The notes below the pieces were generated by a model, which saw only the letters and a list, made by a program, of their open reading frames with translations, searched no databases and was not told the origin of the DNA. The position numbers and the translations under genes were made by a program. Positions 4,413 through 8,968 of a DNA stretch of 13,577 nt are shown here, piece after piece (the first letter of the stretch is position 1; every line of letters begins with the position of its first letter). This DNA comes from Deltaproteobacteria bacterium (GTDB taxonomy: Bacteria; Bdellovibrionota_F; JAHFAK01): contig JAHFAK010000062.1 in assembly GCA_023250585.1 (NCBI GenBank), forward strand, positions 1-13,577, given 5' to 3'.

Positions 4413-4452
4413 CTATATAGAAAAAAGAGTAGTTTTGAGATGAAAAATCCAT

Positions 4453-4458
4453 GAGGAG
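4453..4458 (+). promoter_or_regulatory. Ribosome binding site deciding the helicase start
   Basis: GAGGAG at 4453-4458 lies 4 bases before the ATG at 4463 and 7 bases before the ATG at 4466. The farther-upstream in-frame ATG at 4451 would place this strong Shine-Dalgarno inside the coding sequence and has no comparable site of its own. The start at 4466 (or 4463) is therefore preferred. Confidence 0.65.
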
Positions 4459-4465
4459 TACCATG

Positions 4466-6055
4466 ATGAACAATTTTGATGAATTTACAGAATTAGGGAT
4501 ATCGCCCAATATTTTAAATGCTTTAAAGAAAAAGGGTTTTGAAAAACCGAGCCCTATTCAGAAAGAAATCATTCCTCTTTTAATGAAAAGCTCACAAAAT
4601 ATCATTGGCCAATCTCAAACGGGAACAGGAAAAACAGCTGCTTTTGGAATTCCCCTTATAGAAAAGATAAAACCTCTACAAAAGTATATTCAGGCGCTCA
4701 TTTTAGTTCCAACACGCGAGCTCGCTATTCAAGTTGCAGAAGAAATTAATTCACTCAAAGGCACATCAAAGCTGACGATTATTCCCATGTATGGCGGGCA
4801 ATCAATTGAAGGCCAGATTAGAAACCTTCAAAAAGGAGTTGATATTCTCGTTGGAACGCCAGGCCGTCTTCTTGACTTATTGGACCGCAAAAAACTTTTT
4901 TTACATATGATTTCGTATCTTGTCCTCGACGAAGCTGATGAGATGCTGAATATGGGCTTTATAGAAGATATTGAACGCATCATTAAGCATACAAATAAGA
5001 CACGGCAAGTACTGCTTTTCTCGGCAACTATGCCTGCACCTATTAAAAATATTGCTCAAAAATATATGGGTGAATGCACTCATATTGCAATTAAGAGTAA
5101 AGACTTAACAACCTCTTTAACGGAGCAAATTTATTTTGAAGTACATAAAAATGACAAATTTGAAGTGCTCTGCCGCATTATTGATATAGAACAAAACTTT
5201 TATGGAATAATTTTTTGTAGGACAAAAGTAGATGTGGATCTTTTGTCATCTCAGCTGATCCGAAGAGGATATAGTGCGAGTGGCATTCATGGTGATATAT
5301 CACAAACACAGCGAGAAAAAATACTACTCGCGTTCCGCAAAAAGCACACGAGTATTTTAGTTGCTACCGATGTAGCCGCGAGGGGAATTGATGTTTCTAA
5401 CCTTACCCATGTTATTAATTATTCACTGCCACAAGATCCCGAGTCCTATATTCACCGCATTGGCCGTACGGGACGCGCAGGGAAACAAGGAACAGCGATA
5501 ACATTCGTAACGCCTGAAGAATATCAAGGACTCCTCTATATTCAACGTATCACTAAATCAAATATCCAAAAAAAGAAAATTCCAAATTCACGAGAAATAA
5601 TTGCAGCAAAAAAAACGCGTGTTACCGAAGATATCACGACAATTATTCAATCAGAAAAACACGTTAATTATAAAGATCTTGCTCATATCTTACTCGGAAA
5701 GCATGATGCAGAAGCAGTAATTGCCGCTCTTATCCAACATAACTATGGTGATGAGCTTTTAGAAAGCACGTACAATGAAATTAAGGATACAACCATCGAT
5801 ATCAAAGGTAGAGCGCGTTTATTTGTTGCACTTGGAAAGATGGATGGAATCACCCCCCAAAAGCTCATTCAATATGTAGCATCTGAAGGAAATATTCCAG
5901 CACATCTTATTCGAGATATTAAAATCTATGAAAAATTTTCCTTTATTACTGTCCCATTCCTTGAAGCCGAGCATATTCTACAAGAATTTCAAAAAAACAA
6001 ACATAAAGCTCGTCGTCCACTCATAGAAAAAGCAAAAGAATTGAAGAGAAGGTAG
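4466..6055 (+). CDS. deaD: ATP-dependent DEAD-box RNA helicase, DeaD/CsdA type with DbpA-like RNA-binding domain
   Basis: The product is 529 residues from the preferred start. It has the full DEAD-box set: Q motif PSPIQ (28-32), motif I QTGTGKT (51-57), PTREL (82-86), TPGR (131-134), DEAD (155-158), SAT (186-188), ATDVAARGID (300-309) and HRIGRTGR (330-337). Residues about 450-510 (R-A-R-L-F-V-A-L-G-K-M-D-G-I onward) are a DbpA/DeaD C-terminal RNA-binding domain, ending in a basic tail. DeaD-type proteins unwind structured RNA in ribosome assembly and mRNA decay, especially in the cold. The length is shorter than enterobacterial DeaD, which has a longer basic tail. DbpA itself is an alternative name, but the linker (about 375-445) fits DeaD better. 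The stop is 3 bases before the palindromic element at 6058. Confidence 0.93.
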   Translation: MNNFDEFTELGISPNILNALKKKGFEKPSPIQKEIIPLLMKSSQNIIGQSQTGTGKTAAFGIPLIEKIKPLQKYIQALILVPTRELAIQVAEEINSLKGTSKLTIIPMYGGQSIEGQIRNLQKGVDILVGTPGRLLDLLDRKKLFLHMISYLVLDEADEMLNMGFIEDIERIIKHTNKTRQVLLFSATMPAPIKNIAQKYMGECTHIAIKSKDLTTSLTEQIYFEVHKNDKFEVLCRIIDIEQNFYGIIFCRTKVDVDLLSSQLIRRGYSASGIHGDISQTQREKILLAFRKKHTSILVATDVAARGIDVSNLTHVINYSLPQDPESYIHRIGRTGRAGKQGTAITFVTPEEYQGLLYIQRITKSNIQKKKIPNSREIIAAKKTRVTEDITTIIQSEKHVNYKDLAHILLGKHDAEAVIAALIQHNYGDELLESTYNEIKDTTIDIKGRARLFVALGKMDGITPQKLIQYVASEGNIPAHLIRDIKIYEKFSFITVPFLEAEHILQEFQKNKHKARRPLIEKAKELKRR

Positions 6056-6057
6056 CT

Positions 6058-6181
6058 AAAACGTGCCCGGCAACTTTCGGTCGCTTTTCCGACCAAAAGG
6101 GACACCTCACTTTAAATCATTTCTTAAATATGGGAGTTCCTTTTTGTCAGTTTTTCGACCGAAAGTTGCCGGGCACGTTTT
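6058..6181. repeat. 124-bp full-length imperfect palindrome with perfect 26-bp arms (candidate dispersed palindromic element)
   Basis: Positions 6058-6083 and 6156-6181 are exact reverse complements (26 of 26). The arm contains GTGCCCGGCAACTTTCGG and is visibly more GC-rich than its surroundings. Symmetry about 6119.5 continues inward: paired stretches include 6091-6093/6146-6148, 6095-6100/6139-6144 and 6111-6115/6124-6128. By hand count 45 of 62 positions pair Watson-Crick. A competing local hairpin lies at 6074-6099. Two plus-strand frames are open right through the element. On the minus strand the right arm and adjoining bases encode the last ten residues of the DUF502 protein. It begins 3 bases after the helicase stop, between convergent genes, so its RNA could also act as a bidirectional terminator or stabiliser. 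I saw no clear target duplication and no second copy in the window. Confidence 0.85.
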
Positions 6182-6719
6182 GGTTGGTTACACCACCGGA
6201 TACAATAAATGCCATCATTTCGCTGCCCATAACATTGAGAGGGGTTACTTGATCTCGTGAAACTACTACAAGATTGCCTCCAAAGTTAAAACACTGAGGA
6301 AGATAGACCGCAACCATATCATTCATCCCAAAACTTTCCATACTCTCTCGAGTAATAAAACCAAGATGGCGGACACTACTGCCAGGAATAATTGCTACAG
6401 CAACAGCCTTGGTAAATCCTTTTTTCTCACCCACAAAAGTACTCGTTAAATCTTTGATTGAAGTGTAAATCATTTTAACAAAAGGGACACGACCCATAAG
6501 ATGGTCAACAAAAGCCAAGAGTCTTTTGGTAGCAATATTTGTAGCAATAAAGCCAATCACCACAACAATGGCCAATGTGAGTAAAATTCCCAATCCGGGA
6601 ATAGAAAATCTAAAAATTCCATCGATTTTTGCAAAAATCAGATAGACGACATATACCGTTGCTGCTAAGGGAACAAGGACCAAGAGTCCATTAAAAAAAT
6701 ATTTTGTCATAGTTCTCAT
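6147..6719 (-). CDS. DUF502 family membrane protein with C-terminus supplied by the palindromic element
   Basis: The 190-residue protein matches the DUF502 (PF04367) pattern. It has a transmembrane helix at about 8-29 and a second at about 41-61. A G-R-V-P-F-V-K-M-I-Y-T-S-I-K-D block (76-90) follows, then a soluble domain with G-F-I-T-R-E (120-125), V-A-V-Y-L-P (136-141) and F-I-V-S-G-G-V (171-177). The family's function is not established. DUF502 proteins usually end soon after the 'SGG' segment; here the last ten residues (N181-N190) come from the palindrome at 6058-6181, which also provides the TGA stop. The ATG at 6719 lies one base after the prpD stop, without a clear Shine-Dalgarno, so translation is probably coupled. 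An in-frame ATG at 6710 is an alternative start. Confidence 0.87.
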   Translation of the reverse strand: MRTMTKYFFNGLLVLVPLAATVYVVYLIFAKIDGIFRFSIPGLGILLTLAIVVVIGFIATNIATKRLLAFVDHLMGRVPFVKMIYTSIKDLTSTFVGEKKGFTKAVAVAIIPGSSVRHLGFITRESMESFGMNDMVAVYLPQCFNFGGNLVVVSRDQVTPLNVMGSEMMAFIVSGGVTNQNVPGNFRSKN

Positions 6720-8285: not shown

Positions 8286-8543
8286 ATGGCGCAATATATT
8301 AGCGCAAAAGAATTTAGAACAAACTTTACCGAACTTGTGGAACAAATAAAAAAAGGACTTACACTTATTGTCGTCAAGAGATCTCGACCAGTTTTTAAAG
8401 TTCTACCCATTGATAGCAGAGACGAATTAGGTGAATCAAAAGATTTATTACGTGAAGTATCTATCAACCCTGAGAGAGCCCCTTCTTTAACTAAAATCAA
8501 CAGTATCATTCATGCGCTTCGTAAAAAGAAAAGAAAAAAGTGA
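8286..8543 (+). CDS. Antitoxin of the Phd/YefM type
   Basis: This is an 85-residue protein. The N-terminal half I-S-A-K-E-F-R-T-N-F-T-E-L-V-E-Q-I-K-K-G (5-24) followed by I-V-V-K-R-S-R-P-V-F-K-V-L-P (28-41) is the DNA-binding fold of Phd/YefM antitoxins. The C-terminal half (about 45-85), ending in a run of lysines and arginines, should be the flexible part that covers the toxin. AAGGAG lies five bases before the ATG. The TGA stop overlaps the GTG start of the PIN toxin by four bases, so the pair is translationally coupled. Repeats at 8223-8246 probably serve autoregulation. An antisense open frame over the same stretch is a shadow. Confidence 0.85.
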   Translation: MAQYISAKEFRTNFTELVEQIKKGLTLIVVKRSRPVFKVLPIDSRDELGESKDLLREVSINPERAPSLTKINSIIHALRKKKRKK

Positions 8544-8968
8544 AGATAGTATTAGATACGAATGTTGCTATTTCTGCACTCTTATGGGAAGGAATATGCA
8601 ATCAATTACTACGCTATCTAATCAAATATAACTTTAGAATTCTTGCTTCTCACCCAACTATAAAAGAGTTTGAGGATGTTATTCGATACAAAAAATTTAA
8701 AAGCCGCCTTGAAAATCTTAAGTTTAAGCCTATTGAAGCTGTGGCTTATTATGAAAATCTCGTCACTTTTACTCCAATAACTACAAGATATTGCGCTAAG
8801 ATTGAAGATCCAGATGACATAAAATTTCTCGATCTCGCTCTCAGTGGCAAAGCATCTTTAATTATTTCAGGAGATAATCATTTGTTAAAACTCAAAGCCA
8901 TTGAACAGATTCCAATTGTAATGCCTAACGAGGCTCTAGAAGTTATTGTAAGGTTAGTTTCCGAATAG
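8540..8968 (+). CDS. PIN-domain toxin (putative ribonuclease of a toxin-antitoxin pair)
   Basis: The 142-residue protein begins M-K-I-V-L-D-T-N-V-A-I-S-A-L-L-W, the standard opening of the PIN family annotated as a TA toxin component (PIN_3/TIGR00305-like). Likely metal-binding acids are D6, E43 or E45 in the I-K-E-F-E-D-V segment, D93 with D98 in D-P-D-D-I-K-F-L-D-L-A, and D112 in I-S-G-D-N-H-L-L. All are present, so the nuclease is probably active. The start is GTG within the GTGA overlap with the antitoxin. PIN toxins cleave RNA, often tRNA or mRNA; the target here is unknown. Its TAG stop (8966-8968) directly abuts the stop of the convergent Crp/Fnr gene, leaving no space for a terminator. 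Confidence 0.88.
   Translation: MKIVLDTNVAISALLWEGICNQLLRYLIKYNFRILASHPTIKEFEDVIRYKKFKSRLENLKFKPIEAVAYYENLVTFTPITTRYCAKIEDPDDIKFLDLALSGKASLIISGDNHLLKLKAIEQIPIVMPNEALEVIVRLVSE

Follow-up and report, generated by a model that had tools for sequence, protein, structure and literature searches.

A long palindrome at a gene junction

The window, by which we mean the whole stretch of 13,577 nucleotides that was analysed, contains a 124-bp palindrome situated where a DEAD-box RNA helicase gene and a DUF502 membrane protein gene run towards each other. The features of the locus are listed below.

4451-6055, + strand: DEAD-box RNA helicase gene, CshA/DbpA-like (profile matches)
6058-6181, no strand: doublet, a full-length palindrome and copy of family 1, made of two inverted half-units (fold, BLAST matches, symmetry count)
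6058-6083, + strand: left arm of 26 bp, AAAACGTGCCCGGCAACTTTCGGTCG (inverted-repeat analysis)
6156-6181, - strand: right arm of 26 bp, perfect reverse complement of the left arm (inverted-repeat analysis)
6054-6082, + strand: left bulged REP-like hairpin of 29 nt, consensus GACYGAAACGTGCCCGGCAACTTTCGGTC (43-unit consensus; DNA fold of the 29-mer)
6157-6185, - strand: right bulged REP-like hairpin of 29 nt (43-unit consensus; DNA fold)
6073-6101, + strand: left second hairpin and inner module CAAAAGGG (43-unit consensus; DNA fold)
6138-6166, - strand: right second hairpin and inner module AAAAAGGAAC (43-unit consensus; DNA fold)
6147-6719, - strand: DUF502 membrane protein gene, a host gene lengthened by the element (PF04367, E 1.2e-26)
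6147-6179, - strand: last ten DUF502 codons (NVPGNFRSKN) and stop, read from the element (closest-homologue comparison)

A sequence-only reading of this DNA had described a palindrome symmetric over its full length with perfect 26-bp arms, and this description was confirmed with 46 of the 62 positions pairing across the element (45 in the earlier hand count). The longest inverted arm arising by chance was 14 bp in 100 simulated windows (first-order Markov model, spacers up to 150). Folding of the 124 bases gave -68.6 kcal/mol as compared to -26.3 in shuffles (z -12.7). In the window the left second hairpin overlaps the 3' side of the first one. The outer five nucleotides of the left 29-nt hairpin, AGCTA, have diverged from the consensus and those of the right one are AACCA, read inward.

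The element had also been placed exactly in the gene junction, which is correct on one side only. The helicase gene terminates with a TAG stop at 6055, ahead of the element, whose AAACG starts 2-3 nt beyond, whereas the 3' end of the DUF502 gene lies within it. The closest DUF502 homologue (L027) ends with VSGGITAQ and the protein encoded in the window reads VSGGVTNQ followed by NVPGNFRSKN from the element. Elsewhere in the window a Phd/YefM-like antitoxin and a PIN-domain toxin form a pair (8286-8968), with no adjoining repeat unit seen.

A dispersed family of inverted doublets

The palindrome is one copy of a real dispersed family in its genome (2.24 Mb, 164 contigs, 96.7% complete), here called family 1. 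A BLAST search of the genome returned 59 matches, with six more copies that cover the full length at 80-91% identity and numerous partial matches, and the 20-nt head of the arm, AAACGTGCCCGGCAACTTTC, occurred 44 times genome-wide with up to 3 mismatches as compared to 0 for the reversed pattern used as a control. The dispersed repeat family suspected from the single copy is thus borne out. In an alignment of 43 units conservation climbs at CNR|AAACG, with a C at -3 in 40 of them, and no clear conservation was found beyond -5, so that the copies share their ends and differ in their flanks. No copy of the repeat was found in 40 other genomes searched, in the plasmids searched or, by an exact 22-mer search, in IMG/VR. 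The sole class-mate genome compared is very distant (TypA 47% identical) and is also without it.

Family 1 comprises at least 12 inverted doublets plus singlets, with differing flanks. Most copies are extragenic and some are found upstream of genes. The doublets fall into size classes as follows (contigs C).

121-124 bp: C127, C34, C95, C81, C22
110 bp: C26, C132
about 91 bp: C40, C161 and a decayed one at C30
55-57 bp: C159, C32, C63/C112

The 55-bp palindrome of C159 (L017 1460-1570) has a symmetry that extends 20 bp past the usual ends, with repeated GAAACG motifs. The start of C63 (L038 34-88) and the end of C112 (L040 1022-1078) are overlapping contig ends that carry two versions of one 55-bp palindrome; the loop is turned round between them and an identical C-to-A substitution is found in each arm. 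Correction between the arms, flipping of the hairpin within the population or an artefact of assembly could account for this.

The half-unit of family 1 is about 55-60 nt long and reads GACYGAAACGTGCCCGGCAACTTTCGGTC-GAAAAACCGACC-AAAAGGTACANNCATATTT, i.e. a bulged 29-nt REP-like hairpin, a second hairpin and then CAAAAGGTACA. DNA folding showed that it can adopt two mutually exclusive folds. Hairpin I corresponds to the first 29 nt, with 8 bp and, beyond an internal loop of 2x2, an inner stem of 3 bp, and is found alone at C54, C20 and C159; hairpin II is CTTTYGGTCG...CGACCAAAAG. The two halves of a doublet can instead pair mutually to give a long hairpin. The GT[AG]G tetranucleotide was absent from both strands of the 43-unit consensus and family 1 is therefore not filed as a canonical GTAG REP(IN). 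Rfam miRNA precursor models gave sub-threshold hits only, which we attribute to the chance similarity of such models to a long hairpin.

Where an inward-pointing ORF end was nearby, 9 of 17 outer ends were located 3-6 nt past the stop codon (the ninth being C32:5739). A crude uniform null gives 7e-9 for this spacing, with an interval that was chosen after seeing the data. The stop-adjoining ends could be due to target preference or to selection. They are in accordance with a passive structure, that is bidirectional terminators or nucleoid or RNA-stability hairpins that would have spread by selection or gene conversion with no transposase, as are the many copies at convergent gene ends and the very stable hairpin. 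Yet the sequence itself is conserved including the unpaired inner module, copies also occur upstream of genes, a pattern search found neither promoter nor terminator patterns, and the half-unit is physically attached to a RAYT gene (see below). We consider a purely passive origin improbable. Integron attC sites were also considered, on general grounds; they would probably not apply here, there being no cassette array.

Two related RAYTs and their repeats

The genome contains four Y1_Tnp genes. Two of them, at C32 and C47, are related RAYTs; a third, at C69, is RAYT-like and the fourth, at C13, belongs to the IS200 type. The C32 and C47 RAYTs match PF01797, are 46% identical and form a sister clade with a support of 100/99. 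Both also match the model for REP-associated tyrosine transposases, NF047646, at a score below its cut-off of 80 (69.6 bits for the RAYT), and a profile of nine RAYT sequences matched the TnpA-REP structure 4er8 at E 9.4e-9. The HUH histidines (H59/H61), Y118 and N122 P123 are invariant in the RAYT alignment, providing both the HUH and the Y-x-x-x-NP motif; the C32 protein, a Y1/HUH enzyme of 217 aa, carries them as HMH and YIYQNP.

A family-1 half-unit overlaps the stop codon of the C32 RAYT (L032 2534-2588). On the other side, some 125 nt ahead of the start codon, the contig comes to its end within TGCCTGTACCTTTTTGT. This sequence is ACAAAAAGGTACAGGCA in reverse complement, and slightly altered versions of that inner end occur in other copies. 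About 17 nt of the inverted partner half-unit can be read before the contig end and only one side is complete. The C47 RAYT is bracketed by inverted repeats that match perfectly over 23 bp, AAAGGTGGGGACCGACATATGAA, and are separated by 811 nt. These repeats constitute a second family (family 2) with 33 dispersed matches as compared to 0 in the control, inverted dimers at C22, C88, C162, C113 and C47, and hybrids with family 1 at C94 and C47. Outside the genome the nearest RAYT, that of G034 (about 30% identical), has dispersed palindromes, CCAAAGGTA / AGTACCCAAAGGTA, on its flanks, and comparison of the C32, C47 and G034 repeats showed CAAA(A)GGT to be common to the three repeat families attached to this RAYT branch. 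Distant RAYTs in G030, G021 and G022 sit between inverted repeats of 27-38 nt. The RAYT-like gene at C69 contains an internal in-frame palindrome starting with TGTAGGGGCGACC (L035 2557-2644), which resembles the GTAG REP insertions within subclass 2.4 genes (PMC6006769).

These data bear on the earlier suggestion of a MITE-like family depending on an enzyme in trans. Long inverted termini, small size and several copies in the genome would all fit a classical MITE that arose by deletion from a DDE insertion sequence and is moved by double-stranded cut-and-paste via the 26-bp terminal inverted repeats. Flanking duplications had been named as a sign of transposition, but a target-site duplication of constant length was found at none of the 12 doublets examined. 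In addition, singlet half-units are common and the gene bracketed by the half-unit encodes a Y1/HUH RAYT. A classical DDE MITE thus appears quite unlikely, whereas the non-autonomous nature with an enzyme in trans, here the candidate C32 RAYT, is retained.

The likeness to Rickettsia palindromic elements (RPEs) was not upheld. A coding insert selected or tolerated within ORFs could explain why the DUF502 frame remains open into the element and gains ten residues. It could also explain a family-2 doublet of about 48 bp found in frame in a 583-aa acyl-CoA synthetase-like ORF (L085 1490-1551; C113:33680-33719), where it adds about 16 residues just ahead of the IIYTSGSTG motif. Nearly all family-1 copies are intergenic, however, so that in-frame insertion is not their main location; the source lineage is unrelated and there is no CGTC tag. 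Furthermore, a RAYT is attached here, whereas CGTC-tagged repeats such as RPEs have no dedicated transposase (PMC3733652). An RPE-like origin is highly implausible.

A REPIN/TIRtron-like reading

We consider it probable (roughly 0.8) that family 1 consists of non-autonomous REPIN/TIRtron-like doublets which the C32 RAYT mobilises in trans in single-stranded form. The element would represent two inverted copies of the REP-like half-unit, each of which, folded as a single strand, may be recognised by the C32 Y1/HUH enzyme whose gene bears the same half-unit at its end. By analogy with the chemistry of TnpA-REP (PMC8266576, PMC6006769), the enzyme could cleave and join single-stranded units, for instance on the lagging strand, with no duplication of the target. 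The doublet rather than the singlet would be the moving unit, and CAAAAGGT might replace the GTAG guide. We infer mobility from these features, with the C32 RAYT very probably as its agent; this assignment rests on adjacency, because the genome has two further Y1 genes (C13 and C69). Between convergent genes the inserted hairpin probably has a passive role, as an RNA 3'-end hairpin on both strands, and the element can provide a neighbouring gene with a stop codon or a few C-terminal residues, as in the DUF502 gene.

Most of what is known of REP/RAYT systems with abundant repeats comes from gammaproteobacteria and from GTAG-tagged units, and REPs usually have more than 100 copies, a number above that of family 1 (44 heads). 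Family 1 shares with REPINs (Bertels & Rainey 2011, PMC3116915) the two inverted REP-like units and spacer that form one long hairpin, dispersed extragenically, as well as singlets as apparent remnants and a RAYT gene in its own genome, which has a half-unit on one side and a probable inverted partner, readable for about 17 nt, on the other. Unlike REPINs (PMC3116915) it has no GT[AG]G tag, its half-unit is built of two overlapping hairpins plus the CAAAAGGT module, it is a palindrome over nearly its whole length, is present in tens rather than hundreds of copies and comes from an isolated lineage.

TIRtrons or TIRYTs (Di Nocera 2013, PMC3733652; Quentin 2018, subclass 2.1, PMC6006769) likewise consist of a RAYT-like gene between long inverted repeats that are unrelated to GTAG REPs and also scattered as singles and dimers. 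This is what we found for the C47 gene between its long TIRs and for the dispersal of both families. The C47 repeats come especially close, with perfect 23-bp TIRs and GGGGACCG, which has 7 of the 8 positions of GGGGWSAS, a motif in the TIR of many but not all TIRtrons (PMC3733652, PMC6006769). The full motif was found in the TIR of neither family, and family 1 is without GGGGWSAS. In contrast to TIRtrons the RAYTs described here are no longer than 217-224 aa and do not have the extended C-terminal region found in relatives of about 320 aa, and the family-1 ends contain a bulged REP-like hairpin. With the E. coli REPs and their TnpA-REP (RayT, 4er8) they share an HUH/Y1 enzyme and a hairpin-bulge-hairpin repeat of similar size (29 nt here), whereas the repeat sequence differs, with no GTAG, and the enzymes are alike at the profile level only.

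Family 1 would work like a REPIN and the arrangement of the C47 gene is that of a TIRtron. The most fitting description of family 1 is an atypical doublet family associated with RAYTs, an unusually built relative of REP elements. The expectation of an undescribed element therefore holds at the level of the sequence family, whereas the REP/REPIN and TIRtron kinds have been described (PMC3116915, PMC3733652, PMC6006769). The two RAYTs belong to an isolated uncultured lineage, each with its own dispersed non-GTAG repeat family, and both families share the CAAAAGGT module near the enzyme gene, which can be put forward in concrete terms as a possible recognition signal of another type. The RAYT-linked families represent a case that bridges REPtrons and TIRtrons.

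Genes bordered by family-2 units

A thioesterase gene at C20 is located between an inverted family-2 pair like the RAYT at C47. HEPN-MNT, AbiE and VapBC-like modules border units at C54, C45 and C66, and one antitoxin cassette has a family-2 unit as its left border and three different flanks at C87, C118 and C39. We may tentatively speculate, while doubting it ourselves, that RAYT-associated family-2 ends carry gene cassettes including toxin-antitoxin modules and thus move more than themselves. No toxin-antitoxin family was among the top ones when 81 flanking ORFs were compared to 76 control ORFs, and an enrichment is therefore not claimed; AAA_14/DUF4143 alone stood out (4 as compared to 0 in the control).

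Three contigs, C87, C118 and C39 (L074 1501-1760, L078 1501-1614 and L067 1-113), end within one common repeated sequence that begins at a family-2 unit, with different left flanks, and that at C87 runs into a Phd/YefM-like antitoxin frame. C54 and C45 have in common a segment of about 200 bp (L083 1501-1700 and L082 1501-1700) that starts with a family-2 unit and reaches into a gene for an MNT nucleotidyltransferase; the C45 copy stops at a family-1 half-unit and the C54 copy runs on into a HEPN-MNT pair.
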